Of a stretch of 64,000 nucleotides of DNA, positions 6,954-23,826 are shown one piece after another. The translations under genes were made by a program, and so were the position numbers. The DNA lies in the NCBI GenBank assembly GCA_019119395.1, contig DWXC01000018.1, forward strand, positions 1 through 64,000, written 5' to 3'. Every line of letters begins with the position of its first letter. Position 1 is the stretch's first letter. Below the pieces are notes generated by a model that saw only the letters and a list, made by a program, of their open reading frames with translations, made no database searches and was not told the origin of the DNA. The stretch comes from Candidatus Borkfalkia stercoripullorum (GTDB taxonomy: Bacteria; Bacillota; Clostridia; Christensenellales; Borkfalkiaceae).

Positions 6954-7600
6954 AATTCACACTTTCCTCGTGCAAAGGCACTGCGGAAAGTCGTGATTTT
7001 TAGGAAAACCCCAACGTTCGCCGTTTTGCAAACGGCTCTGCGTTCGGATTTTTCCTCTTTGCCGCTTTTTAAGGGCTTACACTATTATGGATGCGGCAAA
7101 TTCACCTTTCCTGCCCGAGGCCGCGCGCCGCGGCAAATCGTGGGCTTATTCCGAAAAGTGCGATTTTCGGAAACGCAAGTGATTATTTTAATAATTATGC
7201 GAAAAAGCAAAAATGACACTTTTTGCTTTTTCACTCAATTTGGCAACGCTTTGCCTTACGGGAAGAGGGTGAATTTGCGCCCTTATATATTATGTGTGCC
7301 CCTAAAAGGGCGCAAAGAGGGAGAAAACGCCGTCAGCCGTAAGGCGCGCGGCGGTGTCGCCCTAAAATCACGGAAAAATGATTTGTCAGCACAAATCATT
7401 TTTCGTGAACCCAAACAATTTAAGGCGCGTTTGAAAACCACGCTTTTCAAAAAGCGCACTCAATTTGCCGCATGCTTGCGGTCTCAACGGGTGAATGCGG
7501 CGCGCATGATATGGTGTGCACTCAAAAAGCGCGCCGCAGAGGGCAGAGCCCTCAAACTCACGGAAAAAAGTTTTATCAGCTTAAAACTTTTTTCGTGAAT
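6954..7600 (-). repeat. Hairpin repeat array A (trmD-rbgA intergenic)
   Basis: This accounts for a 640-base gap without a credible gene. Three compound units are present. Modules include an ACTTTCC/GGAAAGT stem with inner GTGC-AAAG-GCAC (6961-6991); stems TTTGCCGC/GCGGCAAA (7058-7065 with 7093-7100), TTTGCGCCCTT/AAGGGCGCAAA (7274-7284 with 7306-7316) and TGCGGCGCGC/GCGCGCCGCA (7496-7505 with 7529-7538), all around a related loop; and terminal modules opening TTCACGAAAA and closing TTTTCCGTGA. The last module supplies the final five codons and the stop of trmD. Confidence 0.9.
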
Positions 7601-8261
7601 CAAGTAGATCCGGCCTCTTTTCCCGCGTGAGCTTTTCCGACTGTTCGCGCCGCCACTTGTCGATTTCCGCATGGTTGCCGCTGCGAAGAACTTCCGGCAC
7701 GGCAAGCCCCCTGTATTCCACGGGGCGGGTATATTGCGGGTATTCCAGCATGTTTTCCGAAAAGCTCTCCTGCACCAGCGACGACGTGTTGATAACGCCG
7801 TCTACATAGCGGCAAAGGCAGTCCGTAACGACCATCGCGGGGAGTTCCCCGCCCGTAAGGACATAGTCGCCGATGCTGATCTCTTCGTCGAAAAACAGAT
7901 CGAGTGCGCGCTGATCCACCCCTTCGTAATGCCCGCACAGAAGGATGAGGTGTTCGTATTCCAAAAGCTGAAACACCTTCTGCTGGCGGAAGGTCTCCCC
8001 CTTCGGCGACATATAAATGCGCCGAGCCTTATGCTCGGGGTCGAGCGCTTCCACCGCGGAGCCGATGGGCTGCGCCGTCATCACCATGCCCGCGCCGCCG
8101 CCGAAGGGATAGTCGTCGCATTTGAGATGCTTGTCCTCGGTGTAGTCGCGGATGTTGACGATGTTGATCTCTATTTTGTTTTCCTTCCTCGCCCTGCCCA
8201 AAATGCTCGCCGAAAGAGGCGCAAACATTTCGGGGAAAAGCGTAAGTATGTCGATGCGCAT
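7581..8261 (-). CDS. trmD: tRNA (guanine37-N1)-methyltransferase TrmD
   Basis: 226 residues. A SPOUT-class enzyme methylating G37 of tRNAs with G36 to prevent frameshifting. The signature segments are MRIDILTLFPEMF, DDYPFGGGAGMVM, LLCGHYEGVDQR and SIGDYVLTGGELPAM (the trefoil-knot SAM site), and RSGNHAEIDKWRR. The stop lies inside repeat array A: the C-terminal SRKKF is encoded by the array's outer hairpin, so the tail of this otherwise conserved protein is element-derived. Starts 3 bases after the rimM stop. Confidence 0.97.
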   Translation of the reverse strand: MRIDILTLFPEMFAPLSASILGRARKENKIEINIVNIRDYTEDKHLKCDDYPFGGGAGMVMTAQPIGSAVEALDPEHKARRIYMSPKGETFRQQKVFQLLEYEHLILLCGHYEGVDQRALDLFFDEEISIGDYVLTGGELPAMVVTDCLCRYVDGVINTSSLVQESFSENMLEYPQYTRPVEYRGLAVPEVLRSGNHAEIDKWRREQSEKLTREKRPDLLDSRKKF

Positions 8262-8264
8262 GAT

Positions 8265-8768
8265 TTACTGCTCCGCGAAAACTTCGAAGAACCGCTTTTC
8301 GTTTACGGTCAGTTTTTTATTTTCGATATCCACGCCCGAAACGACGCCGTCGGCGGCGGGGAACATCCCCTCTTTATCGCCGTTTTTCAAAACGTACACG
8401 TCGGTATGGGCGGGCAGAACGTCCGCGATTTCGCCGAGGCGTTCGCCCTTTTCCGTGACCACGGCGCACCCGATGATATCCACAATGTAATACCTGCCCT
8501 CTTCGAGCGCGGGCGCGTCGGCGCGGAGCGCCTCTATCTCTTTTCCGCGGAGGAGTTCCGCCGCGTCCCTGTCGGCAATGCCCGAAAGGGCGAGGTACGC
8601 CGTCTGCGCGTCGGTGCGGCAGGAGAGCACTTTGTATTCCTTTCCGCCGATGTATACTTTTTTGAATGAACGCATGTCCGCGGCGTCGTCTAAAAGGGGT
8701 TTGACCTTGATCTCTCCGCGCACGCCCTGCGGTTTTAACACTTCGCCGATGACGATGGTTTCGGGCAT
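8265..8768 (-). CDS. rimM: 16S rRNA processing protein RimM
   Basis: 167 residues. N-terminal RimM barrel (IGEVLKPQGVRGEIKVKPLLDD) and a C-terminal PRC-barrel (EGRYYIVDIIGCAVVTEKGERLGEI, then the closing LTVNEKRFFEVFAEQ). It assists 30S maturation and binds S19. The start at 8768 is chosen because it begins the conserved domain and follows AAGGAGC; longer in-frame extensions only shadow khpA. Part of rpsP-khpA-rimM-trmD. Confidence 0.95.
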   Translation of the reverse strand: MPETIVIGEVLKPQGVRGEIKVKPLLDDAADMRSFKKVYIGGKEYKVLSCRTDAQTAYLALSGIADRDAAELLRGKEIEALRADAPALEEGRYYIVDIIGCAVVTEKGERLGEIADVLPAHTDVYVLKNGDKEGMFPAADGVVSGVDIENKKLTVNEKRFFEVFAEQ

Positions 8769-8802
8769 CTTATTGCTCCTTGATAAGAAAAGAAGCGGAA
8801 GA

Positions 8803-9057
8803 TCATTCCGCTTTTGCCTTTTCCTTGATTTCGATATTGTATTTTTTGCCTTCTTTCGCGGAAGCGCAGCGCACGAGCGTGCGGAGCGCCTTTGCGATCT
8901 TGCCCTGTTTGCCGATGACTTTGCCCATATCCGATTCTTCGAGCAAAACGACGATCTCCGTACCCTTTTCGCTCTCGTTGACCTGATATTCGATCTCGTC
9001 TTTATGCTCGGCAAACTGCTCGACGACGTATTTTACCAAATCCAGCATTTTCCGCAC
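8803..9057 (-). CDS. khpA: KH-domain RNA-binding protein KhpA (YlqC)
   Basis: 84 residues, essentially a single KH domain with the GxxG loop as GKQG in MGKVIGKQGKIAKALRTLV. It starts with the family's LDLVKYVVEQFAEHKDEI. In other Firmicutes KhpA pairs with the Jag/KhpB protein and binds many mRNAs and sRNAs. Its place between rpsP and rimM is the conserved one. Confidence 0.95.
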   Translation of the reverse strand: MRKMLDLVKYVVEQFAEHKDEIEYQVNESEKGTEIVVLLEESDMGKVIGKQGKIAKALRTLVRCASAKEGKKYNIEIKEKAKAE

Positions 9058-9066
9058 CCCTTACGA

Positions 9067-9360
9067 TTACTTCTTCTTTCTCGTTTTCGTTCTCGGCGCG
9101 GAAAGTTTTTCGCTTTTTTCGATGACACCCTGACGGATGAGAAGGGTCTTGACCGTTTCGGTCGGCTGAACGCCCTTGGAGAGCCAATCCTTCGCCTTTT
9201 CCGCATCGATCACGATCTCTTCGGGCCGGCTGGTGGGATTGTAGTGCCCGACCTTGTCGATGTATTCCCCGTCGCGCGCCTTACGCGAATCGACGACGAC
9301 GATACGATAGAAGGGGGATTTTTTGTCGCCCAATCTCGTAAGCCTCATTTTGACTGCCAT
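9067..9360 (-). CDS. rpsP: 30S ribosomal protein S16
   Basis: 97 residues. Begins [21 protein letters not shown], a strongly conserved S16 start; [17 protein letters not shown] and [14 protein letters not shown] complete the domain. The C-terminal tail is basic. It heads the transcription unit rpsP-khpA-rimM-trmD. The promoter lies at 9415-9443 and AAAGGAG precedes the ATG. Confidence 0.98.
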
Positions 9361-9414
9361 GATTTTTTGCTCCTTTATACTGAAAATTGATCTGCTTTGC
9401 GCATTTACCGCCCT

Positions 9415-9443
9415 ATTATAGCGGATAAAAAAGAGACTGTCAA
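9415..9443 (-). promoter_or_regulatory. rpsP operon promoter with -35 inside the ffh terminator
   Basis: Minus strand TTGACA (9443-9438), exactly 17-nt spacer, TATAAT (9420-9415). The -35 hexamer is part of one arm of the terminator stem at 9437-9460. Confidence 0.85.
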
Positions 9444-9460
9444 GCGTTTTTGCTTGACAG
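9437..9460 (-). terminator. Terminator after ffh
   Basis: A 9-bp perfect stem CTGTCAAGC / GCTTGACAG with a 6-base loop, followed on the minus strand by TCTCTTTTTT, 9 bases past the ffh stop. Confidence 0.85.
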
Positions 9461-9469
9461 GATTAAAAT

Positions 9470-10786
9470 TTACCGCATGAACGGCAATCTTTTGCCGCCC
9501 TTGATCTGCTTCATCAAAAGTTTCGTCTGTTCGAACTGCTTCAAGAGTTGATTTACGTCCTGCACGTTCGTGCCCGAACCCGCCGCGATGCGCTTTTTCC
9601 GCGAAGAGTTGATGATTTCGGGCTTTTCGCGCTCTTTCTTCGTCATGGAAAGGATGATCGCCTTGATCCGCTCCATTTTCTTTTCGTCGAAGTCGCTCTC
9701 TTTGATCTTCAACTTGCTCATGCCCGGCATCATGCCGAGAACCTGCGACGCTCCGCCCATTTTTTTGAGCGATTCGAACTGGTCGAGGTAATCTTCCAGC
9801 GTGAAAGACGCGTCGCGCATCTTCTTTTCCAACTTTTTCGCCTGTTCTTCGCTGACCGCTTCCTGCGCCTTTTCGATGAGGGAAAGGACGTCGCCCATGC
9901 CCAGAATGCGCGACGCCATGCGGTCGGGATAGAAGGGTTCGAGGTCGGTGAGCTTTTCGCCCACGCCGATGAACTTGATGGGTTTGCCCGTGACCGCCTT
10001 GATGGACAGGCAGGCGCCGCCGCGGGTGTCGCCGTCCAACTTGGTGAGGATGACGCCCGTCACGTCCAGCCGTTTATTGAACGTTTCGGCAACGTTTACA
10101 GCGTCCTGCCCCGTCATGGAGTCGACGGTGAGCAGTATCTCGTTCGGGTGCACCTCGTTTTTGATGTTTTCGAGCTCCTGCATGAGCGCGTCGTCTATGT
10201 GCAGGCGGCCCGCCGTGTCGATGATGACGGTGTCGTACCCCATCGAGCGGGCATATTCGATGCCCTGTTTCGCCGTCTTTACGGGGTTTTGCGTGCCCTT
10301 TTCGAACACTTCCGCGCCCGCCTTGCCGCCGACGACCTGCAACTGGTTGATCGCGGCGGGGCGGTAGATGTCGCCCGCGACCAAAAGCGGCTTTTTGCCC
10401 TGCTTTTTGAGGAGTACGGCGAGCTTGCCGCACAGCGTGGTCTTGCCCGCGCCCTGCAAGCCGCACATCATGATGACGGTGGGCGGCTTATCCGCGATTT
10501 CGAGTTTCGCGTTCGTCGAGCCCATGAGCGCGCACAGTTCGTCGTTGACGATTTTGATGACCTGCTGCGTGGGGTTCAGGCTCTTCAAAATTTCCTGCCC
10601 GACCGCCTTTTCGGATACGTCGGCAATGAATTTTTTGGCGACGTAGATATTTACGTCCGCCTCCAAAAGCGCGATGCGGACTTCGCGCATGGCGCCCTTG
10701 ATTTCAAGCTCGGTGAGTTTTCCGTGCTTGGTGAGTTTTGAAAAAATATGGTTGAGCCTCTCGGAGAGAGAAGAAAACAATGCCAT
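9470..10786 (-). CDS. ffh: Signal recognition particle protein Ffh (SRP54)
   Basis: 438 residues. NG domain: N-terminal LSERLNHIFSKLTKHGKL, G1 GLQGAGKTT near 110-118, DTAGR near 190, TKLDGD near 248. The methionine-rich M domain lies at the C-terminus (KKMGGASQVLGMMPGM...GGKRLPFMR), although it is shorter than in some species. It binds signal sequences and SRP RNA and docks on FtsY. ylxM lies upstream, with a small membrane-protein gene between. Confidence 0.98.
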   Translation of the reverse strand: MALFSSLSERLNHIFSKLTKHGKLTELEIKGAMREVRIALLEADVNIYVAKKFIADVSEKAVGQEILKSLNPTQQVIKIVNDELCALMGSTNAKLEIADKPPTVIMMCGLQGAGKTTLCGKLAVLLKKQGKKPLLVAGDIYRPAAINQLQVVGGKAGAEVFEKGTQNPVKTAKQGIEYARSMGYDTVIIDTAGRLHIDDALMQELENIKNEVHPNEILLTVDSMTGQDAVNVAETFNKRLDVTGVILTKLDGDTRGGACLSIKAVTGKPIKFIGVGEKLTDLEPFYPDRMASRILGMGDVLSLIEKAQEAVSEEQAKKLEKKMRDASFTLEDYLDQFESLKKMGGASQVLGMMPGMSKLKIKESDFDEKKMERIKAIILSMTKKEREKPEIINSSRKKRIAAGSGTNVQDVNQLLKQFEQTKLLMKQIKGGKRLPFMR

Positions 10787-10810
10787 AAAATAATATCCCT
10801 TTTTTAGAAG

Positions 10811-11365
10811 TTATTGCAAATAATATTTCGGATCAATATCCTTTAATTCCATCGGCTCTTTTTCTTTATTCCTTTTCAGAGACTTTAATATGCACCCCGA
10901 TACGAGCAAAACGACATATATAACAAACAAACTTGGATTGTACCAAGAACGTACCGAACGTAACAGAGTTTCCGTTTCGGAAAGTTCCTTCTGCAAATCG
11001 GAAGTCCATTCGGCACTTCCTTCAAGCGCCTTTAACCGCTCGATTTCTCCGTTGAGATCGGCCATCCAAATATTTAACCAGATATAAAAAGCGATAATCG
11101 CCAATATCAATATGAATAAAAATACACCGATAACCTGTTTTTTTCTGCTTTTTCCGCGTAAAGGAAGGATGAATAAACCGACCATCATCCAAACCAATGC
11201 CGTTAAAACAAGCGCCTGCAAAAAATAAACGGCTGTTTTATTGTATACCGACAAAACGTCCAACACAATAAGCGCACTGCAACCCGCTACGAGAACGAGC
11301 GACGGAACAAATATAAATATTATATTATACCTACTGAACAGCTTTTTTAATTTCCCCTCTTTCAT
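10811..11365 (-). CDS. Unrecognised small membrane protein between ylxM and ffh
   Basis: 184 residues. About four hydrophobic segments are visible: NIIFIFVPSLVLVAGCSALIV, YFLQALVLTALVWMMVGLFIL, QVIGVFLFILILAIIAFYIWL and LFVIYVVLLVSGCIL. A charged, probably helical stretch (DLNGEIERLKALEGS...LSETETLLRSV) separates the third and fourth. I recognise no family. The start at 11365 is preferred over a GTG seven codons earlier because AAGGGG lies between them. It is clearly AT-richer than the flanking core genes and interrupts the usually adjacent ylxM-ffh pair, which suggests a later insertion. Confidence 0.65.
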   Translation of the reverse strand: MKEGKLKKLFSRYNIIFIFVPSLVLVAGCSALIVLDVLSVYNKTAVYFLQALVLTALVWMMVGLFILPLRGKSRKKQVIGVFLFILILAIIAFYIWLNIWMADLNGEIERLKALEGSAEWTSDLQKELSETETLLRSVRSWYNPSLFVIYVVLLVSGCILKSLKRNKEKEPMELKDIDPKYYLQ

Positions 11366-11402
11366 ATTCTCTTTTCCCCTTCTCACTGTTCTATTTTTTA
11401 CT

Positions 11403-11753
11403 TCATTTTTTTACCGCTTCCAATATTTTCAAAACCTTATCCGCTTCGCCGGAATACTGCGGATTAGCAGACTTAAAATCTTCCGCGCATCGCCGCGCCT
11501 CGGCGATGCATGATTCGTATAATGAAATCTTTTGCTCTATTGCGACGACGCGCAGTTTTTCTTCGTAACCGTCCAAAAGGGCGCGGCACTTGGCGAGCGT
11601 ATCGGATACGCCCTGCTTGGATATGCCCTTTTGCTCGGCGATCTCCGTCAAAGAGAGGTCGCACATATAATACAGCTCGCAGATATCCCTTTGGTGCTCC
11701 GTCAAAAGAGCGCCGTAAACGTCGAAAAGCCGCAGATACTTCAAATCTTTCAT
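11403..11753 (-). CDS. ylxM: YlxM/UPF0122 helix-turn-helix protein
   Basis: 116 residues. A sigma-factor region-4-like helix-turn-helix: LLTEHQRDICELYYMCDLSLTEIAE, then KGISKQGVSDTLAKC. In streptococci YlxM modulates SRP GTPase activity and is nearly always encoded next to ffh or ftsY. Here one small gene separates it from ffh and DUF2130 separates it from ftsY. Confidence 0.92.
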   Translation of the reverse strand: MKDLKYLRLFDVYGALLTEHQRDICELYYMCDLSLTEIAEQKGISKQGVSDTLAKCRALLDGYEEKLRVVAIEQKISLYESCIAEARRCAEDFKSANPQYSGEADKVLKILEAVKK

Positions 11754-11781
11754 ATCATCGACCTCTGTTTTCGTTTTTTAA

Positions 11782-13077
11782 TTATAAACGATTTGCCCCT
11801 GACCTGTCAAGTAAGTTCTTAAACAAGTCAGGGGCAACGTTCATTGTAGTCTTGTTTTCTTTTAATTCTTTAAATTTAGCCGCCATGGTCGGATTGTTTT
11901 TTGTTAATTTTTTAATTGTTAAATCTTCAGCCTTATTATTTGCCAAGCGCAAATTATTTTCCGACCCCAGTAAAGCATCTTTAATTTTTTGCAAATGGTC
12001 AATCGTTTTATCAATCTCATCGATTGCTTTTTTAAATCTTTCGCTTGCCAACCGATAATTATTGGCAAATTTTTCTTTGAAATCATTAAGATCATCCTCA
12101 AAATGAGTGATATCTAAATTTTGTTCTTTCATAACCATCAATTCTTTTTTATATTCCAGTACTTTTAACGACGAATTCCTTAAAAGCGTTATAATAGGGA
12201 TAAAAAATTGAGGTCTTACAACATACATTTTAGGATATTTATGGGAAACATCGACGATACCCGAATTATAAAATTCATTGTCAGATTCCAGCATTGACAC
12301 AAGAACGGCATACTCACACTTTTTTTCGTTGCGATCTTTGTTGAGTTCTTTGAAAAAATCTTCGTTTTTCTTTTTAGTCGCCGTAGTCTCTCCTTCGTTT
12401 TTCATTTCAAACATAATTGAAATAAATTCGGTTCCGCTTTCATCATAATCCCTAAAAATATAATCGCCTTTACTACCCGTCTTGATATCATTGTCCTTTT
12501 CAAAATAAGCATTTTGAAAACCTAATGCTCTTAACTTATTAAATTCTATCTCGCAATGCTGCTCTAAACTTTCGCCCCATATTTTGACACTTTGTCGTGC
12601 TTTTAAATCCTTATAATAATCAATATCCGCCTGCTTTTCTTTTAATTTCCTTTCATATTCCTCTTTTAAATGATTTTCTTCAAGTTCCTTTTCCTTTTGA
12701 GCAATCTCCTGTTCACCTTGCAATTTCGTGATTGCTTTTTCTTTTTCTGCCAGCAATTCTTGAGCGTTTTTAACCGCTTCTGAAACAGCCAATTCTTTTT
12801 CTTTATCCGCAGCGGTAACTTTCCCTTGCAATTCAATTATTGCTTGCTCTTTAAGCGCGAGTTCCTTCTCTTTCTCGTTTAATTTAGCATTGAATTCTTT
12901 CTCTGCTGCAAGTTTTGCTATTTCTATATCATTTTGCTTTTCTCTCAATAATTGTTCTTCCCTTGCCTTAATATCTTTTGCAAATTCTTTATCACGAACT
13001 TGCTTGATCATTGCTGCATAACCATTTTCATCAACTTGGAACACTTGACCACATTTGGGACACTTAATTTCATTCAT
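11782..13077 (-). CDS. DUF2130 family protein with zinc ribbon, coiled coil and nuclease-like C-terminus
   Basis: 431 residues. An N-terminal [14 protein letters not shown] half-ribbon is followed by a long charged coiled coil (about 30-170, rich in K/E, with repeated AEKEKAI-type heptads). The conserved DUF2130 core then contains [30 protein letters not shown], whose D...ExK arrangement (FEMK) resembles a PD-(D/E)XK nuclease centre. Activity is an inference. The gene is much AT-richer than its neighbours and sits between ftsY and ylxM. It has its own promoter and an elaborate leader at 13092-13268, so it is probably horizontally acquired and tightly controlled. The strong AAGGAGGG site is 9 bases before the ATG. 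Confidence 0.8.
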
Positions 13078-13105
13078 TTAATTACCCTCCTTTATGTATA
13101 AAAAA

Positions 13106-13126
13106 TGCGTCCCATTGAGAGACGCA
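13106..13126 (-). terminator. Leader terminator (attenuator) before the DUF2130 gene
   Basis: Read on the minus strand: TGCGTC, 9-nt loop, GACGCA, then TTTTTT, ending just before the Shine-Dalgarno. It looks like a Rho-independent terminator inside the 5' leader. The loop plus one stem base (13113-13121, CTCTCAATG in RNA sense) is perfectly complementary to CATTGAGAG at 13148-13140, which would form a competing helix. Confidence 0.6.
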
Positions 13127-13149
13127 CCGAAAAATGCTCCTCTCAATGT

Positions 13150-13234
13150 TACCACACATTTTCCTCAAACAAAGGCGAGAGAATACATTTTTACCATAGT
13201 ATTCCCTTTGAATGAGGTATTAAAATGTGTGGTA
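13150..13234 (-). promoter_or_regulatory. 85-nt 5'-end hairpin of the DUF2130 transcript
   Basis: Four stacked helices share one axis: 13 bp (TACCACACATTTT, 13150-13162, with 13222-13234), 5 bp (13163-13167 with 13213-13217), 6 bp (13170-13175 with 13205-13210) and 6 bp (13181-13186 with 13199-13204). This gives 30 pairs around a 12-base loop. The predicted transcription start (about 13233) coincides with its base, so it would form the extreme 5' end of the mRNA. Confidence 0.75.
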
Positions 13235-13239
13235 CTATC

Positions 13240-13268
13240 ATTATATCAAACTAATTTTTTAAAGTCAA
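13240..13268 (-). promoter_or_regulatory. Promoter of the DUF2130 gene
   Basis: Minus strand TTGACT (13268-13263), 17-nt spacer, TATAAT (13245-13240). Confidence 0.8.
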
Positions 13269-13277
13269 TATTTTTAA

Positions 13278-13318
13278 AAATAAAAGAAGCAAAGTATTTT
13301 ACCTCGCTTCTTTTATTT
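13278..13318 (-). terminator. Terminator after ftsY
   Basis: A 13-bp perfect stem AAATAAAAGAAGC (13278-13290) with 13306-13318, followed on the minus strand by further T-rich sequence, 63 bases past the ftsY stop. Confidence 0.7.
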
Positions 13319-13380
13319 GTAGTCTTGTTTTCACAGTAATCTTTGTCTTTTGAATACATTATCCTGTCGGGCGTTTCCGC

Positions 13381-14277
13381 TCAGATGATGCCCTCTGTAA
13401 ACTCTTCCGCGTCGAAAAGCTGCAGATCGTCTATCTTTTCGCCCGTGCCGACGAAAATGACGGGGATCTTCAGTTCGCCGCACAGCGATACCACGAACCC
13501 GCCCTTTGCCGTGCCGTCCAATTTGGTCAGAACGATGCCGTCGAGATCGACCGCTTCGTCGAATATGCGCGCCTGCGACATGGCGTTCTGCCCCGTCGTG
13601 GCGTCGAGCACGAGCAGCTTATAAAAATGCGCTTCGGGGTAATCGCGCTCCACGACGCGATCCATCTTTTTCAATTCTTCCATAAGGTTGGCCTTGACGT
13701 GCAGCCGCCCCGCCGTATCCACGATGACGACGTCCGTCTTTTTCGCCTTGGCGGAAGAGATCGCGTCGAACACGACCGCGGACGGATCGCTCCCCTCTTC
13801 GTGCTTGACGATGCGCACCTTCGCCCTGTCTGCCCAGACGGAAAGCTGGTCAGCCGCCGCTGCGCGGAAGGTGTCCGCCGCCGCCACGGTGACGCTCTTT
13901 TTCTGTTTGACGAAATAATTGGCAAGTTTGCCGATGGTCGTGGTTTTGCCCACGCCGTTCACGCCGACGAGCATGATGACCGCGGGATATTCGATTTCGG
14001 GCACTTCCGCTTCGCAGAGGGTATCCTCTATGACGTCCTTCAAAAGGTTGACGACGAACTCTCTGTCTTTGAGTTTTTCCGCCTTCGCTTCGGCGCGGAT
14101 CTGATCGATGACGTCTTCCGCCGTCGTGACGGAGATATCCGCGGAGATCAGGATTTCTTCCAACTCGTCGTAAAAGTCGTCGCCGAGTTTGTTTTTTGCG
14201 AACAGCGCGTTGAGTTTGGAAGAGATGTTGTCCTTCGTCTTTTTGAGTGCTCCGATGATTTTTCCGAAAAGTCCCAT
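13381..14277 (-). CDS. ftsY: SRP receptor FtsY
   Basis: 298 residues, with almost no acidic A domain, so only the NG core is present. N domain from about 10 (LKKTKDNISSKLNALF), G1 GVNGVGKTT near 108-116, DTFRAAAADQL near 137-147, DTAGRLHVKANLM, and TKLDGTAKGG near 252. It is the membrane docking partner of Ffh in co-translational targeting. AAAGGAGG is 5 bases before the ATG, and repeat array B ends immediately upstream of that site. Confidence 0.97.
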   Translation of the reverse strand: MGLFGKIIGALKKTKDNISSKLNALFAKNKLGDDFYDELEEILISADISVTTAEDVIDQIRAEAKAEKLKDREFVVNLLKDVIEDTLCEAEVPEIEYPAVIMLVGVNGVGKTTTIGKLANYFVKQKKSVTVAAADTFRAAAADQLSVWADRAKVRIVKHEEGSDPSAVVFDAISSAKAKKTDVVIVDTAGRLHVKANLMEELKKMDRVVERDYPEAHFYKLLVLDATTGQNAMSQARIFDEAVDLDGIVLTKLDGTAKGGFVVSLCGELKIPVIFVGTGEKIDDLQLFDAEEFTEGII

Positions 14278-14292
14278 AAAACCTCCTTTCTG

Positions 14293-14925
14293 CGTTCACG
14301 AAAACCTCGGCGGGACGCCGCCTGCGGTTTTCCGCGATATTGAGGGCTCTGCCCTCTGCGGCGCGCTTTTTGATGGCACGCCGTATCATGCGCGCCGCAT
14401 TCACCCGTTGAGACCGCAAGTATGCGGCTAATTGAGTGCGCTTATCCAAAATAGCGATTTCGGAACGCGCCTTAAATCTTTTTGATTCACGAAAACCTCG
14501 GCGGGACGCCGCCTGCGGTTTTCCGTGATTTTGAGGGCTCTGCCCTCTGCGGCGCGCTTTTTGAGGGCACGCCGTATCATGCGCGCCGCATTCACCCGCT
14601 GAGACCGCAAGTATGCGGCTAATTGAGTGCGCTTATCCAAAATAGCACTTTCGGAACGCGCCTTAAATTATTTAAATAATCACTTGCGTTTCCGAAAATC
14701 GCACTTTTCGGAATAAGCCCCCGATTTGCCGCGATGAGCGGCCTCGGGCAGGAAAGGTGAATTTGCCGCATTTATATTAGTGTAAGCCCTTAAAAAGCGG
14801 CAAAGAGGAAAAATCCGAACGCAGAGCCGTTTGCAAAACGGCGAACGTTGGGGTTTTTCTAAAAATCACGACTTTTCGCAGTGCCTTTGCACGAGAAAAG
14901 TGTGAATACCCTCATTTTTCGCGAA
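14293..14925 (-). repeat. Hairpin repeat array B (methyltransferase-ftsY intergenic)
   Basis: This accounts for a 630-base gap. Two nearly identical units (14296-14470 and 14485-14665) each contain TTCACGAAAA...TTTTCC(G)TGA, a GAGGGC-TCT-GCCCTC hairpin and a 10-bp TGCGGCGCGC stem (14357-14366 with 14390-14399; 14548-14557 with 14581-14590). A third, diverged unit has TTCCGAAAA/TTTTCGGAA (near 14683-14710), TTTGCCGC/GCGGCAAA (14762-14769 with 14797-14804) and ACTTTTC/GAAAAGT around GTGC-CTTT-GCAC (14871-14901). The array starts at the methyltransferase stop and ends at the ftsY ribosome site. Confidence 0.9.
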
Positions 14926-15905: not shown

Positions 15906-18900
15906 TTATGCGACCGTATCGCCGCCGAGCTTGCTCTCCACCTCGGACAGCTTGACGGAAACGATCTTGGAAACGCCCTTTTCTTCCATCGTGACGCCGA
16001 ACAGGCAGTCCGCCTTTTCCATGGTCGGCTTCCTGTGGGTGATGACGATGAACTGCGTCTCTTTTGCGAATTTTTTCAAGAACTGCGCGAACTTGTCGAC
16101 GTTCGCCTCGTCGAGCGCGGCCTCGATCTCGTCGAGCACGCAGAACGGCATCGGGCGGAGCATGAGGATGGCGAACAGAATGGCGATCGCCGTGAGAGCG
16201 CGCTCGCCGCCCGAAAGCAGGGAGATCTTCGTCAGTTTTTTGCCCGGGGGGCAGGCGACGATCTCCACCCCGGCGGAGAGCGGATCGTCCGTTTCCGAAT
16301 AGTCCATCTGGAGTTCCGCCTTGCCGCCGCCGAACAGCTCCCTGAACAGCTTTTTAAAGTTTTCGTTGATCTGGTTGAACCCTTCGTCGAACTGTTTCTG
16401 CATTTCGCCTTTGAGTTCTTCGAGCGCGGCGCTCGTGTCGTCGATGCCCTTTTGCACGTCGTCGCGCTGGGCGGCCATCTCCTCGTACTGCGCGGAAAGC
16501 GCCTCGTATTCTTCCAGCGCGTTGTGGTTGATCGGCCCGAGGGAATTGATCTCGCGCTTTAATCGGTTGACGAGCGTCTGCCCCTCTTTCGGATCGAAAT
16601 TTTCGTCTTTATACGCGAGGCAGCTTTCATACGTTTCCTGATACTCCTCGTCGATGCGCGCCTGCAGGTTTTCGAGTTCCGAATCGATTTTGGTCAGCTC
16701 GATCTCCTGGCGGTGGCGCTGTTCGGAAAGGGCGTCTATCTGCTCCTGCGCGGCGCGGCTCTTGGACATGATGCCCTCGAGCTCCGCGTTCAGTTTTTCC
16801 TTATCCGACAAAAGCCTGTCTTTCCGCTCGCGCAGGGAATTGAGTTCGCCGAGCTGTTCGGGGGTGAGAGCCGTCTTTTCCGCCATCTCTTCGAGATCTT
16901 CGATCGTGGCGGCGATGTTTTTGATGTTCGCCTCCGAATCTCTTATCTTGCTTTCCAAGTCCTCTTTTTCGCGCAAAAGGCGCTCGGCGTTGGCGTTTTC
17001 GTTCTCCATCGCGGCGCGGTACTGCGCGATGTACACGTGCAGCACGTTGAGCCGCAGGTTGCGCTCGCCCAGTTCGGATTTGAGTTTGTCGTACTCGGCT
17101 TTGCGCTTTTCGCTCTCCTCGTCGGCGGCGCTCTTCATTTTGCTGAATTTTTCTTCCCCTTCCGAAGAAGTGGAAAATTCGCTGTCTATGCCCTGCATCC
17201 GCTCGTAAAGCACGGCGAGCGTACCTTCCTGCGTTTTGAGGGACTTTTCGTCCTCGAAAAGTTTTTGTTCGAGGGTCTGCACCTTTTCTTCCAGCGCGGC
17301 GCGCTTGGCGCGCGCTTCCTGAAAACTCTCGCGCAGCGTTTCCAGCTCTTCGGCGGCCTTGTTTTTCCTCTCTTCCAGCGCGGCGCGCTCGGAAGAGAGT
17401 TTTTTTGCCTCCGCTTCCGCCGCGGCGATCGCCTTCGCAGTCTCTTCGATTTTCCGCTCGTTTGCGAGGAGGTTTCCGCTGTCCGCGCGGCGCGAACCGC
17501 CCGTCATCGATCCGGATGTGGAAATGACGTCCCCGTCCAGCGTGACGATGCGGAACGCGTGCGGGTACTTTTTGGAGATCTCGTTGGCGTTCGCGATATT
17601 ATCGGCGATCAGCGTGTTGCCGATGAGGTTGTATATGACGTTGTCGTAATACTTGTCGTAGCGGACGAGTTCGTTCGCAAGCCCCACGGCGCCCTTTTCT
17701 TTGAGCGCGCGGCGGGTGTAGTCCGTCTCGTAATGCGGCTTCAACGACGCGACGGGCAAAAACGTGACCGAACCGCCCTTGGTGCGTTTGAGGTATTCGA
17801 TGAGGGCGCGCGCGTCGTCGCTCGTGGCGGTGACGATGTTCTGCATCGCGCCGCCGAACGCCGTTTCGATGGCGACTTCGTACTTTTCGTCGCACTTGAC
17901 GATATCCGCGATGACGCCCTTGATGCGCTTGGCGAGGTCGGGATCGGAGCGGCTGTCGCTCATCAGTTTTTTGACCGAGAATTTATACCCTTCGAAGTCC
18001 TCTTTCACGTTGAGGTAAAAGCGCTTCCTGTCGTTCAGGGAAGATACGCGCGCGTTCGCGTCGAACAGTTTTTCGGATACTGCGTCCTCCTGCGCGTTGA
18101 GACCTGCGATCTCATCTTCCTTGGCGGCTTTGGTCTCCTTTTCGCGGGAAAGGTAGTCGACGAGTTCGTCGTACCAGTCCTTGTTTTCCGCAAGCGCCTT
18201 TCTTTCCGCTTCGATCTCGCCTTTGAGCTTTTCCGCCTGCGCCGCGATCTCGGAAATACGTTCCTCGACCGCCTCTTTTTTTGCGGAAAGCGTGCCGATG
18301 TTCTGTCTGATCTCGGAAAGGTTTTCGATCGTGTCGATGACGGTTTTCTGCGAACGGTCGGTAAGTTCTTCGTATTCGGAGATCTTGCCGCTGAACGAAG
18401 AGACTTCCTCGTTCAGAACGGAAATTTCCTTTTCGGAATCGGCGATCTTCGCGCGGTAATCGGCCGCGGCTTTCTGCGCGGAAGCGACGGAGCCTGCGAT
18501 AACTTCCAGACGTTTTTCGCTTTCGGCGATGAAATTTTCGCTGTTTTCGCGCTGTTCCTTAAAGAACCCGATACGTTCGCGGATGACTTTTACGTCGCCC
18601 TCTTTCTTTTCGAGGTCGACGGTGTATTTGAGTATCTGTTCGTTGATCTGCTGCAAGAGCGCGTCGCTTTCGGCGGTCTTTTTCCTGTCCTCGGCGTACC
18701 GCGCTTCCAGCCGCTCCACTTCGGCCCTGCCCGCGTCGATCGCCGATTGCAGGGAATCGAGCATGGCGTTGATCGAGGCGCGCGCGGAAGCGGCGTTGTC
18801 GTGCTTGTATATGTAGAGATTGATCTCCGAATTTTTGAGCTGCCCGTACAGTTCGTTATACCGCTTGGTCTTTTCCGCCTGGCGCGCGAGCGGGGTAAGC

Positions 18901-19505
18901 ATGTGCTCCACTTCGCCGATGCGCTGCAAAAAGATGTTCAGGTTGTTGTAGGAGTTGGAGAGCCGCCTTTCGATATCCTGTTTGCGCGATTTGAATACGA
19001 TGATGCCCGTCGCCTCTTCGAAAATGGCGCGCCTGTCCTCGGGCTTCGCGTTCATGATCTGCTCGATCTTGCCCTGCCCGATGATGGAGTACCCCTCTTT
19101 GCCGAGGCCCACGGCGTGCAGCCTGTCCACGATGTCTTTCATGCGGCAGGGCTGTTTGTTGATGAGGTATTCGCTCTCGCCGCTGCGGAACAGCCGCCGC
19201 GTCATCGCCACTTCGTCGTAATCGAGGTCGGCGAACATCCTCGTGGAATTGTCGAATGTGAGCGTGACCTCGCAGAAAGACTGGCTCTTCCGCGTCTGCG
19301 TGCCGCCGAAAATGACGTCCTGCATGTTCGAGCCGCGCATGGTTTTTGCAGACTGTTCGCCGAATACCCAGCGGATCGAGTCGGCCACGTTGCTCTTGCC
19401 GCAGCCGTTCGGCCCGACGATACAGGTGACGCCGTTATCGAATTTTATTTCGGTCTTGTCCGCAAAGGACTTGAAACCGTTGAGTTCGACTTTTCTGAAA
19501 TTCAA
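15906..19505 (-). CDS. smc: Chromosome segregation protein SMC
   Basis: 1199 residues. N-terminal ATPase half FRKVELNGFKSFADKTEIKF with Walker A GPNGCGKSN, then coiled coil (about 170-500). The hinge (about 510-680) ends in LDGDVISTSGSMTGG, followed by a second coiled coil. The C-terminal half has the signature LLSGGERALTAIAILFA and Walker B PFCVLDEIEAALDEAN. It condenses and aligns chromosomes with ScpAB. I chose a TTG start at 19505: GGGGGAG lies 7 bases upstream, the conserved domain begins there, and the rnc stop is one base before it. A longer in-frame extension would only read through rnc. Confidence 0.95.
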   Translation of the reverse strand: MNFRKVELNGFKSFADKTEIKFDNGVTCIVGPNGCGKSNVADSIRWVFGEQSAKTMRGSNMQDVIFGGTQTRKSQSFCEVTLTFDNSTRMFADLDYDEVAMTRRLFRSGESEYLINKQPCRMKDIVDRLHAVGLGKEGYSIIGQGKIEQIMNAKPEDRRAIFEEATGIIVFKSRKQDIERRLSNSYNNLNIFLQRIGEVEHMLTPLARQAEKTKRYNELYGQLKNSEINLYIYKHDNAASARASINAMLDSLQSAIDAGRAEVERLEARYAEDRKKTAESDALLQQINEQILKYTVDLEKKEGDVKVIRERIGFFKEQRENSENFIAESEKRLEVIAGSVASAQKAAADYRAKIADSEKEISVLNEEVSSFSGKISEYEELTDRSQKTVIDTIENLSEIRQNIGTLSAKKEAVEERISEIAAQAEKLKGEIEAERKALAENKDWYDELVDYLSREKETKAAKEDEIAGLNAQEDAVSEKLFDANARVSSLNDRKRFYLNVKEDFEGYKFSVKKLMSDSRSDPDLAKRIKGVIADIVKCDEKYEVAIETAFGGAMQNIVTATSDDARALIEYLKRTKGGSVTFLPVASLKPHYETDYTRRALKEKGAVGLANELVRYDKYYDNVIYNLIGNTLIADNIANANEISKKYPHAFRIVTLDGDVISTSGSMTGGSRRADSGNLLANERKIEETAKAIAAAEAEAKKLSSERAALEERKNKAAEELETLRESFQEARAKRAALEEKVQTLEQKLFEDEKSLKTQEGTLAVLYERMQGIDSEFSTSSEGEEKFSKMKSAADEESEKRKAEYDKLKSELGERNLRLNVLHVYIAQYRAAMENENANAERLLREKEDLESKIRDSEANIKNIAATIEDLEEMAEKTALTPEQLGELNSLRERKDRLLSDKEKLNAELEGIMSKSRAAQEQIDALSEQRHRQEIELTKIDSELENLQARIDEEYQETYESCLAYKDENFDPKEGQTLVNRLKREINSLGPINHNALEEYEALSAQYEEMAAQRDDVQKGIDDTSAALEELKGEMQKQFDEGFNQINENFKKLFRELFGGGKAELQMDYSETDDPLSAGVEIVACPPGKKLTKISLLSGGERALTAIAILFAILMLRPMPFCVLDEIEAALDEANVDKFAQFLKKFAKETQFIVITHRKPTMEKADCLFGVTMEEKGVSKIVSVKLSEVESKLGGDTVA

Positions 19506-19506
19506 A

Positions 19507-20181
19507 TCAGTTCTCCCCCGATGAATTTTGTAATTTGCACAAAAGCGCCTTTGCGGCGGCCTTTTCCGCTTCCGCTTTGCTGCCCCCTTCGCCGAGGGCG
19601 AACAATCCTCCGCCCGCCGCGCGGACGGTGAAGCGGGGCGCATGCGCCGCGCCCTCCGTTTTTACCAGCGTATACTCCGGTTTTTCCGGCCCGCGCGCCT
19701 GCAAAAATTCCTGCAATTCTCCCTTGTAATTGCGCTTCCCGCTCTCCTCAGAGACGATGGGCGCAAGGTGTTTGCGGACGAATTTTTCCGCTTCGTCCAT
19801 GCCGCCGTCGAGATAGATCCCCGCGACGAGCGATTCGAACAGGCTGGATATCGCCTTTGCCCCGGGTTTTGCACCGCCGCCGAAGAGCAGAAACTTGTCC
19901 AGCCCCGCGCGCTCGATACATTCTTTGAGCGGAGCTTCGGAAACCAGCCGCTGACGCGTCTGCGTCATTTTGCCCTCGTTCTCCCCGCCGTGCAGAAAAA
20001 GCAGCTTCGCGACGAGAAACCCGAGCACCGCGTCGCCCAGGAATTCGAGGCGTTCGTTGCTCAAAACCCCGTGCGCGTTCGCATAGGAAGAGTGCGTAAA
20101 ACAGACGGTAAGAAGCTCTTTGTCGGCGAACGTGTAGCCGATGACGCGCTCGATTTCGGCGACGTCAGGACTCGGAAGCAC
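19507..20181 (-). CDS. rnc: Ribonuclease III
   Basis: 224 residues. The endonuclease domain has the signature SNERLEFLGDAVLGFLVAKLLF (about 41-62), whose acidic residues bind magnesium, and the second acidic patch DGGMDEAEKFV. A C-terminal double-stranded-RNA-binding domain (about 155-222) ends in GGSKAEAEKAAAKALL. It processes rRNA precursors and cuts long RNA hairpins, which is notable in a window rich in long hairpins. It overlaps the plsX 3' end by 17 bases; no acpP lies between them. Confidence 0.96.
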   Translation of the reverse strand: MLPSPDVAEIERVIGYTFADKELLTVCFTHSSYANAHGVLSNERLEFLGDAVLGFLVAKLLFLHGGENEGKMTQTRQRLVSEAPLKECIERAGLDKFLLFGGGAKPGAKAISSLFESLVAGIYLDGGMDEAEKFVRKHLAPIVSEESGKRNYKGELQEFLQARGPEKPEYTLVKTEGAAHAPRFTVRAAGGGLFALGEGGSKAEAEKAAAKALLCKLQNSSGEN

Positions 20182-21199
20182 CGATCGACTCCAGGTCTAC
20201 GCCCGAAAGCATCTCTTTGATGCTGCCGATGATATTGCCGTCGGCCGCCTCTTTCGCCTGCAAAAGGGACGCGCAGATCGAATCGGCCTTGCTCGAACCG
20301 TGCGACTTGACGACGACCTTATCGATGCCCAGAAGCACCGCCCCGCCGTACTTGTTGTAGTCCATGACCTTTTTGATCTTTTTGAAGGTGGGGCGCATGA
20401 ACAGCGCGTATCCGATCTTCGCCATAAAGGAAGAGGAGATGTATTTTTTGATGATCTTCATGACGGCGGCGGCAGTGCCTTCCGTCGTTTTGAGCGCGAT
20501 GTTGCCCGAAAAACCGTCGCACACGGCGACGTCTATGTCGCCCGCCATGATGTCGCGCCCTTCCACGTTGCCGACAAAGTTGATGCCGGGAAGGGTCTTT
20601 AAAAGTTCGTGCGCTTCCTGATGCAGAGGGTCGCCCTTATGGTCTTCCGTACCGTTGGTCACGAGCCCCACGCGCGGCTCTTTGATGCCCGAAGCGCGCG
20701 CATACGCCGTGCCCATGATGGCAAAGTGGCATAAATTCACGGGTTTGCACTCCGCGTTCGCGCCCGCGTCGATGATGTACACCCTGCCCTCTTTCGCCGT
20801 CGGAAGGGCGGGGCAGACCGCCGGGCGGGAAATGCCGCGTATCCTGCCCACGCGAAGGAGCGCGCCCGTGAGCACCGCGCCCGTGGAACCCGCGGAAACG
20901 AAGCCTTTCGCCTCATCGTCCTCTTTGAGCATTTTCAGCGCCACCACGAGGGAAGAATCCTTTTTCTGCCGGATGGCGGCGGTGGGCACGTCGTCGTTGG
21001 TAATGACTTCCGTGCAATGCACGATCTCCAAACGCGCCTTGTCGTACGAAAGCGGAGAGAGCGCGGCGGAGATTTTCGCCTCGTCGCCCGTGAGTACGAC
21101 TTTAAGTTCTTTATCCGTTTGCAAAGCCTGCACCGCGCCCTTTACGATCTCTTCGGGGGCGTTGTCGCCGCCCATTGCGTCCAAAATGATTTTTGTCAT
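20165..21199 (-). CDS. plsX: Phosphate acyltransferase PlsX
   Basis: 344 residues. Starts MTKIILDAMGGDNAP, the invariant PlsX opening. The rest of the domain includes GFVSAGSTGAVL, LIDAGANAECKP-like text (IIDAGANAECKP) and CDGFSGNIALKTTEGTA. It makes acyl-phosphate from acyl-ACP for phosphatidic acid synthesis. The start at 21199 is fixed by homology and by GGAG upstream. The fabD/fabG/acpP genes often seen beside it are absent; array C and ilvD come next. Confidence 0.96.
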   Translation of the reverse strand: MTKIILDAMGGDNAPEEIVKGAVQALQTDKELKVVLTGDEAKISAALSPLSYDKARLEIVHCTEVITNDDVPTAAIRQKKDSSLVVALKMLKEDDEAKGFVSAGSTGAVLTGALLRVGRIRGISRPAVCPALPTAKEGRVYIIDAGANAECKPVNLCHFAIMGTAYARASGIKEPRVGLVTNGTEDHKGDPLHQEAHELLKTLPGINFVGNVEGRDIMAGDIDVAVCDGFSGNIALKTTEGTAAAVMKIIKKYISSSFMAKIGYALFMRPTFKKIKKVMDYNKYGGAVLLGIDKVVVKSHGSSKADSICASLLQAKEAADGNIIGSIKEMLSGVDLESIGASES

Positions 21200-21229
21200 A
21201 AAAACTCCTATATCCTTGTTCACAAAAGG

Positions 21230-21988
21230 GAGTTCACACTTTTCTCGCGCAAAGGCGCTGCGAAAAGTCGTGATTTTGAGAGACAACCGCCGTTCGCCGA
21301 CACAAGGTCGGCTCTGCGGCGTTTTTCTCTCTGCGGCGTCGCGGCAAAATATTTTACGCAAGCATTTACAATACTTGCAAATGCTTTGCTCCTATATGTT
21401 TGCCGCTCCTTATTTCCAAAAATCTCACACCGCTGCGCGCGTTGCGATTTTTGGAAGCCTTAATTTAAGGGCTTTCCTATTATGGCAATTTTCGCATTCA
21501 CTCTTTTTCGACAAGCCGCTTGTCGCGGCAAATCGGGGGCTTTTTCCGAAAAGTGCGATTTTCGGAAACGCAAGTGAATTATTTGGGTTCACGAAAAATG
21601 ATTTGTGCTGACAAATCATTTTTCCGTGATTTTTAGGGCTCTGCCCTCTGCGGCGCGCTTTTTGAGAGCACACCGTATCACGCGCGCCGCATTCACCCGT
21701 TGAGACCGCAGGTATGCGGCAAATTGAGTGCGCTTATCCAAAATGGCGATTTCGGAACGCGCCTTAAATTAAATAATAATCATGTGAAAAAGCAAAAACC
21801 ACGCTTTTTGCTTTTTCACTCAATTTGCCAATGCTTTGGCTTACGGAAAGGGTGAATTTGCGGCACTGTATAGTTTGCGTGCCCTTAAAAGTGCCGCAAA
21901 GAGGGGAAAACCGTTTGGGTTTCCCCTCAAAATCGCACGATTTCGCAGGCATCGGCTTGCCGAGAAATCGGCGAGTTATTTTGTGAAT
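21230..21988 (-). repeat. Hairpin repeat array C (ilvD-plsX intergenic)
   Basis: This accounts for a 776-base gap. Modules: ACTTTTC/GAAAAGT with inner GCGC-AAAG-GCGC (21238-21268); a reversed GCGGCAAA/TTTGCCGC pair (21351-21358 with 21399-21406); TTCCAAAAAT/ATTTTTGGAA (near 21415-21455); TTCCGAAAA/TTTTCGGAA (near 21545-21570); TTCACGAAAAATGATTTG with its complement (near 21589-21627); TGCGGCGCGC (21649-21658 with 21682-21691); a long GTGAAAAAGCAAAA stem (near 21783-21820); and TTTGCGGCACT/AGTGCCGCAAA (21857-21867 with 21890-21900). The ilvD stop codon lies in its TTCACAAAA edge. Confidence 0.9.
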
Positions 21989-23640
21989 ATTGCGCCTTTG
22001 CTCGCCGAAGTCACCTGCGCGCGGTAGCGTTTCAGGTAGCCGTCTACGGGCTTTTCGAGGGGCTTGAAGTTTTTCAGCCGCTCTTTCATTTCCTTTTCGC
22101 CGATGCGCAGATTGATCTCGCCCTTTTCGATGTCGATGTCGATGATGTCGCCATCCTTGATGACGCCGATGGGGCCGCCCGCCGCCGCCTCGGGGCAGAC
22201 GTGGCCGATCGCCGCTCCGCGCGTCGCGCCCGAGAACCTGCCGTCGGTGATGAGCGCCACGTCAGCGCCCAGCCCCGCGCCCACGATGGCGGAGGTAGGG
22301 GAGAGCATCTCGCGCATCCCGGGGCCGCCCTTGGGGCCTTCGTATCGGATGACCACGACGTCGCCCTTCACGATCTTGCCCGTGGAAATGGCTTCCATTG
22401 CAGCCTCTTCGCTGTCGAACACCTTTGCGGGGCCGCTGTGTTTGAGCATCGCGGGATCGACCGCGCTCTTTTTGACGACCGCGCCTTCCGCCGCGATGTT
22501 GCCTTTGAGGATCGCGAGCCCGCCGGTGGGGGAATAGGGGTTGTCCATCGGGCGGATGACTTCTTTATCCAGAACGCGCGCGTTTTTCACCCGTTCGTGC
22601 TGCGTAACGCCCGAAACGGTCATTGCCGAACCGTCGAACAGCCCCGCATCTTCGAGCTGTTTTATGACGGCCGAAATGCCGCCCGCCTCGTTCAGATCTT
22701 CGATGTAATGTTCGCCCGCGGGCGCAAGTTTGCAGATGTGCGGAACTTTCGCGCTCACTTCGTTGAAGGTGTCTACGGAAAAATCCTTCTCGCTCATGCC
22801 CACTTCGTTCGCCACCGCCAAAAGGTGCAGGACGCTGTTGGAGGATGCGCCGATGGCGTTGTCCACCGCGACGGCGTTTCTCACCGCCTTGGGAGTGATC
22901 ACGTCGGAGGGGCGGATGTTGTTTTTCACCGCGTTCATCACCGCTTCGCCCGTTTCCTTGGCGAGCATGATGCGCCTGCTGTAAACCATGGGTATGGTGC
23001 CGTTGCCGGGCAGGGCGATGCCGAGCGCTTCGGTCAGGCAGTTGAGGCTGTTCGCCGTGAACATGCCCGAGCAGGAACCGCAGGTGGGGCAGGAAGAGCA
23101 TTCGTATTCGTGCAGTTCTTCCGCGTCGATCCTGCCCGCGTTGTAGGCGCCCACCGCTTCGAACATAGAGGAGAGGGAAAGGCGCTTGCCGTGCATTTTC
23201 CCCGCGAGCATCGGCCCGCCCGAAACGAAAGCGCAGGGCAGGTTCAGGCGGACTGCCGCCATGAGCATGCCGGGGATGATTTTGTCGCAGTTGCCCACGA
23301 ACACGATGCCCGAAAAAGCATGGGCGCGCGCGAGTATCTCCGCGCTGTCCGCTATGATCTCGCGCGAGGGCAGGGAATAGCGCATACCCGCATGCCCCAT
23401 GGCGATGCCGTCGCACACGCCGATGGAGGGCACGACGACGGGTTTGCCGCCCCCCGCGATGACGCCCTCTTTGACCGCTTCGGCGATCTTATCGAGGTAC
23501 ATATGCCCGGGGATGATGTCGCTCTGCGCGCAGATGATGCCGATGATCGGCTTTCTCATCTCGCTGTCCGTCCAGCCGAGCGCGCGCATGAGCGAGCGCT
23601 GCGAGGACATTGCCGTTCCTTCGGAAAAAATATTGTTCAT
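21976..23640 (-). CDS. ilvD: Dihydroxy-acid dehydratase
   Basis: 554 residues, full length. Cysteines for the iron-sulfur cluster are seen in [11 protein letters not shown] and [16 protein letters not shown], and the C-terminal family signature [24 protein letters not shown] is present. It converts 2,3-dihydroxy-3-methylvalerate and its valine analogue to the 2-keto acids, the third step of branched-chain amino acid synthesis. AGGAGAG precedes the ATG. It is the last gene of the ilvB-ilvN-ilvD cluster and is separated from ilvN by array D; ilvC is not in the window. Confidence 0.98.
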
Positions 23641-23689
23641 GGCTTTTAACTCTCCTGTGTAATATTTTTTGTTTTACGAAAATGTTCGT

Positions 23690-23826
23690 GCTTCCTCGTG
23701 CAAAGGCACGGAGGAAAGCCATGATGTTTAGGTCTCCGCGTTCGCTGTTTTGCAAACGGTTCATGGTTTGGGTTTCCCCTTAAATCGCGGAAAAACGATT
23801 TGCCGGCACAAATTATTTTTCGCGAA
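23690..23826 (-). repeat. Short hairpin repeat array D (ilvN-ilvD intergenic)
   Basis: Two modules of the same family: GCTTCC/GGAAAGC around GTGC-AAAG-GCAC (23690-23719), and TTCGCGAAAAA...TTTTTCCGCGA (near 23784-23826). The latter is a compensated variant of TTCACGAAAA...TTTTCCGTGA. It begins 3 bases past the ilvN stop. Confidence 0.8.

Follow-up and report, generated by a model that had tools for sequence, protein, structure and literature searches.

Integron attC sites are recognised in the form of folded single strands carrying extrahelical bases, and the sequence of their stems varies; Correia and ERIC elements have an anatomy different from that of the five-hairpin repeat unit described in this work. 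The unit forms four intergenic arrays in a 64,000-nucleotide stretch of DNA from Candidatus Borkfalkia stercoripullorum (contig DWXC01000018.1, C37 in our numbering; hereafter the window), which is part of a 1.87-Mb metagenome-assembled genome (MAG) that is 92% complete. It differs from attC in having five hairpins (HP1 to HP5), and no cassette genes were seen, although no search for an integron integrase was made. The family resembles the REP, BIME and REPIN elements, which are reported to be extragenic, multicopy, hairpin-based and organised in mosaic arrays and inverted pairs (PMC3733652, PMC2817692, PMC3116915); REP dimers with different stems have also been described (PMC3733652). Inverted pairs and mosaic arrays between genes can be observed in the present family as well. 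However, a REP is a single hairpin of 20-40 bp, whereas the present unit has five hairpins in ~190 bp, shows by reading no unpaired GTAG/CGTC tag and has no link to Y1 genes; moreover, its converging order holds without exception in 80 junctions, and a conserved bulged C accompanies stems of free sequence. The BOX elements of Streptococcus are also modular hairpin repeats with a variable number of modules that can sit between genes, and Correia and ERIC elements are also small repeats in operons, able to alter mRNA processing (both PMC3049150). Going by the descriptions, a BOX is organised as boxA-boxB(n)-boxC, whereas here whole five-part units are stacked and set face to face.

A literature search, to which subscription papers were mostly out of scope, showed, among the entries listed, no title or opening of an abstract that describes this family, and the unit seems to be a small repeat of a kind not described before, akin to REP/BIME and BOX and shaped at the level of DNA, not of RNA. 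Our preferred reading, held with a confidence of 0.45, is that these extragenic repeats are non-autonomous and mosaic, that HP1 docks them at gene edges and that folded single-stranded DNA is the form in which they are recognised.

A repeat unit made of five hairpins

Folding and alignment gave a unit of ~190-235 bp with the order HP1-HP2-HP3-HP4-HP5, and all four arrays are built from this one unit type, used in both orientations (written > when read from HP1 to HP5; Table 1). An initial annotation of the window had proposed four hairpin arrays built from three modules. All the arrays were found at about the positions it gave, and all three modules are real, the one with the TTTTTRAGGGC loop being HP3; they are not all separate, however, because the AAAG/CTTT and TTCACG...CGTGA modules are two forms of HP1. 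The inclusion of HP2, HP4 and HP5 in the same unit, the orientation rule and the spread across genus, family and order go beyond that annotation.

HP1 is closed at its base by TTCAC/GTGA, HP2 shows the greatest variation in length, the HP3 stem comprises 8-10 pairs and its 21-28-nt loop is built around AAGGGCACRC...TATTAT, HP4 starts with TTCACC, and the loop region of HP5 reads AAAAGCGTGGTTTT or close to it. In the alignment of units used below (A1), the near-invariant positions are the TTCAC and CAAAT linkers, some parts of the HP3 loop and the three inner A-T pairs of HP5. This anatomy and the statistics given in the following sections are solid. As a check for terminal repeats of the miniature inverted-repeat transposable element type, the ends of complete converging arrays were compared: they start with a TTCAC-like and end with a GTGAA-like sequence, and the two sides are different hairpins. 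In units of one type, the HP4 sequence that follows TTCAC is similar to the HP2 right arm (e.g. 7002-7056 and 7101-7140), and an alternative HP2-HP4 pairing may be possible within the unit.

Conservation of pairing in the stems

Alignment A1 was made with MAFFT and holds 68 of the 70 clusters of units that are less than 90% alike; L162:1281, which has a nested insert, and L180:3427, a chimera, were omitted. HP3 was counted in 69 units (one of the 70 clusters was skipped), in which 38 distinct left arms were found and 534 of 552 pairs over the first eight positions are Watson-Crick, with 14 "other" mismatches that come mostly from two out-of-register rows. The double-change score of HP3 is 0.44; shuffling columns 200 times and arms 200 times gave no score above 0.10. 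In A1, covariation amounts to 0.707 (shuffled mean 0.201; slid partners at most 0.218), double changes occur in 19 of 20 pairs, and both sides have changed in 402 cells, compared with 139 after shuffling and at most 133 with slid partners. These values support the proposals that the arrays form one family with compensated stems and that pairing itself is maintained.

Among the 44 nearest pairs of units (90-97% identity), 22 double changes were counted, mostly bidirectional and hence corresponding to 11-22 events, together with 36 broken pairs; such near copies differ at 3.4% of stem sites versus 6.9% of loop sites. These changes have to be compared with a mutational explanation, in which quasipalindrome template switching lets one arm template the other, so that stems become perfect and the repeats are decaying copies of a dead element. 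Template switching is reported to homogenise inverted repeats (PMC7202029, PMC8604942). Its operation here would agree with arms that are almost strictly Watson-Crick without a preference for G-T, with the frequency of double changes in near copies and with the larger change in their loops than in their stems. We consider this explanation unlikely, although it deserves serious attention: across the family, some linker and loop positions are near-invariant while stems differ (the inner A-T pairs of HP5 are invariant as well), a bulged C is fixed at one place in HP1, HP1 loops are strongly biased to one form, and the orientation rule is left unexplained (see below). Arm-to-arm conversion, which the initial annotation had named as a possible refutation of maintained pairing, remains a rival that explains neither the conserved bulge nor the orientation rule.

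Pairing at the DNA or the RNA level

In RNA, G-U pairs are tolerated and A-C pairs on one strand are not. As a control, pairs were counted in RNase P RNA from this genus, giving 276 G-U and 10 A-C among 2375 (11.6% vs 0.4%; 25 of 26 sequences over the cut-off, with pairs unanchored, unlike those of the repeat counts). When units less than 90% alike were anchored, HP3 had one G-T and one A-C in 280 pairs and HP5 had five G-T and three A-C in 343 pairs, i.e. rates of 0.4-1.5% each; one HP5 and one to four HP3 were rejected from the anchored counts as out of register. The anchored counts for all 116 units were one G-T and two A-C in HP3, and six and eight in HP5; those for genome G232 of the sister genus g18 were one and one in HP3, and two and three in HP5. 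The 44 pairs of near copies contain nine G-T, six A-C and 21 other mismatches. A first unanchored count gave six G-T and 16 A-C, and the unanchored A1 alignment gave 22 G-T, seven A-C and 100 other mismatches, which fall mostly in HP5, where the register suffers from gaps; the anchored recount of HP5 removes most of this G-T excess. The tolerance typical of RNA, with G-U far above A-C, was not found, the unanchored A1 count pointing weakly the opposite way. Since G-T and A-C are about equally frequent and both rare in the anchored counts, unlike in RNase P, the evidence is good that DNA is the level at which pairing is maintained, through recognition of the folded single strand or through copying of arms. 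The initial proposal of "RNA or DNA cruciforms" is thereby narrowed toward DNA by the anchored and near-copy counts.

The units could also be structured RNAs in operon mRNA, involved in processing, stability or attenuation, with selection on the RNA keeping the pairing. The conserved loops and the bulge resemble RNA motifs, the unanchored A1 count leans in this direction, and 17 of the 19 scorable arrays of the genome lie between co-directional genes (gene calls for these counts and for the docking distances in G232 were made with our own codon-based script). However, 38 of 47 neighbouring gene pairs in the window are also co-directional, and the share at array sites is close to this background. 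Additionally, any excess of G-U falls short of that in RNase P, and both arrays and single units occur in either orientation to the transcript (in G232, seven sense and five antisense between co-directional genes). We therefore regard an origin by RNA selection as quite improbable. A search of Rfam 15, suggested at the outset as a check, returned for the window only three tRNAs at the gathering threshold, all of them outside the arrays, and no match at E<=0.1 for four further loci (L066, L067, L069 and L250).

Another transcript-based explanation is that intrinsic terminators or attenuators have multiplied inside operons. A scan of positions 6000-24500 found 48 terminator-like sites (35.7 expected), 11 of them in the arrays, which make up ~12% of that stretch, and in relatives without units the khpA-rimM gap can hold a small hairpin at the stop codon. 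The scan used a loose consensus that hairpin-rich DNA alone raises, and a terminator needs neither a five-part unit nor the bulge nor an orientation rule, which makes this explanation very unlikely. A TATTATA-like promoter within the HP3 loop was also considered, with a single weak match at 7059-7088 in U1 and another match in the nested element of array 3.

A bulged C and the orientation of units

Across 31 left arms, 95 of 106 unique HP1s have an extra C in the 3' arm, four pairs up from the base, counting only those with TCAC/GTGA ends; the same bulge was observed in all ten HP1s scored in the sister genus. The remaining 11 comprise seven without a bulge and four with a G on the 5' side, the latter probably being hairpins read from the other strand. 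A bulge of this kind should be lost if arm copying were the only process at work. HP1 loops occur 63 times in the forward form and five times inverted, in a count whose script also caught some false hairpins.

The orientation of neighbouring units follows a simple rule. Among 80 junctions with a gap below 350 nt, 39 are >< and 41 are >> or <<, and no <> junction, in which HP1 would face HP1, was found; for this count, arrays from overlapping loci were removed only where their cores were identical. Three of seven larger gaps (350-4000 nt) are <>, and these are taken as separate arrays. Moreover, units that face each other are unlike in sequence: the 16 facing pairs of the genome have a mean identity of 0.552 and none exceeds 0.7, whereas permuted units give 0.643, with 28% above 0.7 (p=0.0004). 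The ten pairs in the same direction behave like random ones (p=0.46). Among relatives, identity above 0.75 was found in none of 25 facing pairs and in none of 13 direct pairs.

Position of HP1 at gene edges and distribution of the units

The position of HP1 is mostly at a stop codon or just 5' of a ribosome-binding site. In the window, its distance to the stop codon is 0 nt for ilvD, 3 nt for ilvN and 5 nt for the methyltransferase gene, and HP1 of U3 contains the stop codon of trmD (7581-7583); on the other side of the gaps, HP1 begins 17-44 nt 5' of the next start codon. The same can be observed in G232, where the gap has a median of 5 nt on the HP1 side (14 of 17 loci scorable, HP1 being unplaceable in three) versus 48 nt on the HP5 side (17 loci; p=0.001). 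The individual distances from HP1 to the stop codon in G232 are 0, -14, 4, 5, -13, 4, -14, 5 and 5 nt in nine cases and 924 nt in a tenth, and those to the start codon are 12, 7, 144 and 66 nt in four cases; at L274, one distance of 4 nt was measured to a leftover arm, and HP1 proper begins 12 nt further.

Two blastn queries gave 42 and 56 matches in the genome, and a covariance model of HP3-HP5 recognised at least 78 units. With the same model, units were found in 37 of 40 genomes of the genus, from 0 to at least 85 per genome, and in 15 of 200 genomes of the order, our own included; all unit counts are lower bounds, with at most 85 (genus) or 17 (order) candidates scored per genome and stricter filters in the order scan. 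Outside the genus, the units occur in two other genera of the family (g18 and g20) and in the families f6 and f14. Scores reach 100 bits in g18, the only one of these in which the full HP1-HP5 order was confirmed, and are 26-56 bits in g20, f6 and f14, where inspection by eye recognises the unit only in part. The 17 units listed for G232 are mostly solitary, at least two of them (L272 and L286) being followed by a second, partial unit. Contigs C2, C4, C10, C16, C20 and C34 are among those that begin, judged by their first 300 bases, inside or beside units; the repeats therefore probably interrupt the assembly, so that copy numbers are underestimated.

The comparison of corresponding gaps shows that a gap may carry units in some species and none in others. 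By eye, 11 of 27 rows have units in the gap 3' of ilvD, two have shortened or remnant hairpins and 14 have none (27 of 30 loci were read). For the rbgA-trmD gap, nine loci with both genes comprise three with units, one with a single hairpin and five with none, and the khpA-rimM gap has a unit in one of five g18 genomes. An HP1 at the ilvD stop codon is common to G000, G008 and G014, and the HP3 stem behind it in G008 and G014 is different from that of G000, for which reason modules seem to be exchanged between units. Mobility of the units is likely.

Proposed docking and the search for a mobilising enzyme

The folded single strand is our best inference for the substrate. A recombination or transposition enzyme would read the shape, bulge and loops of the folded strand rather than the sequence of its stems. 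HP1 would be the docking end, settling either at the stop codon of the preceding gene or just 5' of the ribosome-binding site of the gene that follows the gap. One unit docked at each edge of a gap would give a converging pair, and later docking at an existing HP1 would give the > > < type of array; if every unit docks its HP1 at a gap edge, converging pairs would follow and diverging pairs could not arise. A facing pair of the same type would form a long palindrome, which may be unstable or misfold and so be lost. Effects on operon mRNA are likely but would be secondary.

It is important to mention several points that weigh against this reading. In the genome itself (92% complete), no Y1 transposase and no reverse transcriptase (RVT_1) were found; the seven gaps of 350-4000 bases between units contain 50 open reading frames (ORFs) without a recurrent protein, no autonomous copy was found, and no insertion was observed directly. 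Visual inspection of the four arrays and of khpA-rimM, where G209 was compared with four unit-free sites whose flanks have diverged, revealed no target duplication. Not all loop positions are conserved, as the near copies show, the G-T excess of the unanchored A1 alignment points weakly to RNA, and template switching could yield perfect stems without any enzyme.

Several origins were considered and rejected. A retroelement origin was discarded for want of RVT_1 in the genome. An autonomous copy carrying a gene between facing units was not supported, as no recurrent protein was found; the C34 gap holds two short ORFs, not searched in databases. An origin from phages or plasmids gave no match for U5 (searched with distant sensitivity) nor for one HP3 pattern in viral contigs, a weak result from a single query each. 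Movement of REP/BIME-like elements by a REP-associated Y1 transposase (RAYT) would fit the extragenic hairpins, inverted pairs, unlike stems within a dimer and mosaic arrays, all of which are described for REPs (PMC3733652). Nevertheless, besides the missing Y1 protein, the number of Y1 genes in the 40 genomes of the genus correlates negatively with the number of units (rho -0.37, p 0.02), Y1 occurring in 9 of 19 genomes with at least 30 units and in 14 of 21 with fewer, and the ends TTCAC/GTGA pair together, with no unpaired GTAG or CGTC tag. We hold this explanation to be extremely unlikely.

A more far-reaching form of the folded-strand reading, which we put forward tentatively and think less likely than not, is a new class of mobile DNA: a unit of five hairpins would move as a folded single strand, be read by its shape (bulged C, loops) rather than its stem sequence and attach to gene edges through one of its ends, with a putative enzyme of this order of Clostridia moving it; its stems would diversify because alike units facing each other within a gap are not tolerated. 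In any case, compensatory changes at dozens of loci that probably do not come from RNA selection are a warning for the discovery of RNAs by covariation, and the counting of G-U versus A-C could separate RNA selection from pairing at the DNA level. The family also offers a natural library of hairpins whose shape is fixed while their stems are free, and it suggests that an enzyme able to recognise folded DNA may exist. Both the orientation rule and the lack of alike facing units can be put to the test as statements on how repeats of this kind are tolerated in operons.

Coordinates, neighbouring genes and minor features

Table 1. Arrays, repeat units and associated elements in the window.
Feature	Position	Orientation	Details
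Array 1	6956-7599	> < <	trmD-rbgA gap
U1	6956-7188	+	HP1 6956-6996, HP2 7002-7056, HP3 7058-7100, HP4 7101-7140, HP5 7144-7176
U2	7189-7409	-	HP5 7199-7234, HP3 7274-7316, HP1 7368-7409
U3	7411-7599	-	HP5 7425-7457, HP3 7496-7538, HP2 7539-7553, HP1 7558-7599
Array 2	14295-14906 (leftover arm to 14925)	> > <	methyltransferase-ftsY gap
U4	14295-14485	+	HP1 14295-14337, HP3 14357-14399
U5	14486-14678	+	HP1 14486-14528, HP3 14548-14590; near-identical tandem copy of U4
U6	14672-14906	-	HP5 14686-14718, HP3 14762-14804, HP1 14866-14906
Leftover HP1-like left arm outside U6	14912-14925	-	ends in methyltransferase stop codon 14912-14914
Array 3	21233-21975	> > <, first interrupted	ilvD-plsX gap
U7	21233-21585	+	HP1 21233-21273, HP5 21539-21571; interrupted by nested element
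Nested second small element, 119 nt	21341-21459	+	within HP3 region of U7
U8	21588-21778	+	HP1 21588-21629, HP3 21649-21691
U9	21769-21975	-	HP3 21857-21900, HP1 21933-21975, directly after ilvD stop codon 21976-21978
Array 4, shortened	23685-23826		HP1 23685-23724 (+) and HP2, then inverted HP1 23785-23826 (-); interior lost; ilvN-ilvD gap

The genes flanking the arrays are all on the minus strand. rbgA (ylqF), trmD, ftsY, plsX, ilvD and ilvN have NCBIfam matches above the cut-offs, whereas the fourth flanking gene, for an adenine-specific DNA methyltransferase, has matches below the curated cut-off. The nearest public relatives, judged by RbgA, are a Clostridia MAG (97% identity) and Candidatus Borkfalkia avistercoris (86%). 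In most of the relatives compared for the ilvD gap, ilvD is followed by a gene starting with a MKLQIFDSTLRDGAQG-like sequence; here it is followed by array 3 and then plsX. Array 3 thus lies at a break in synteny, because plsX replaces that gene, and the break has perhaps arisen from recombination between arrays.

Lone HP1-like left arms were observed just outside the outermost HP1 at 14912-14925, at 21219-21229 and on C28 near position 76,000, as if left behind by an earlier unit. The nested element of ~119 nt, which has its own hairpins, is also present inside another unit on C34 near position 41,700, and similar stretches can be observed in the ilvD gaps of the relatives G008 and G019. Another insert (ATAATATCGAGGCGAGCCTCGATATT...) lies in the HP4 loop of an otherwise intact unit, at L063 upstream of rbgA (first 160 bases) and at L162 (1281-1412); the corresponding unit of G011 is without it. 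Finally, the repeat list of the window shows a run of 15-base repeats, GCGGACGGCTCGGAT-like, at positions 49985-50079.

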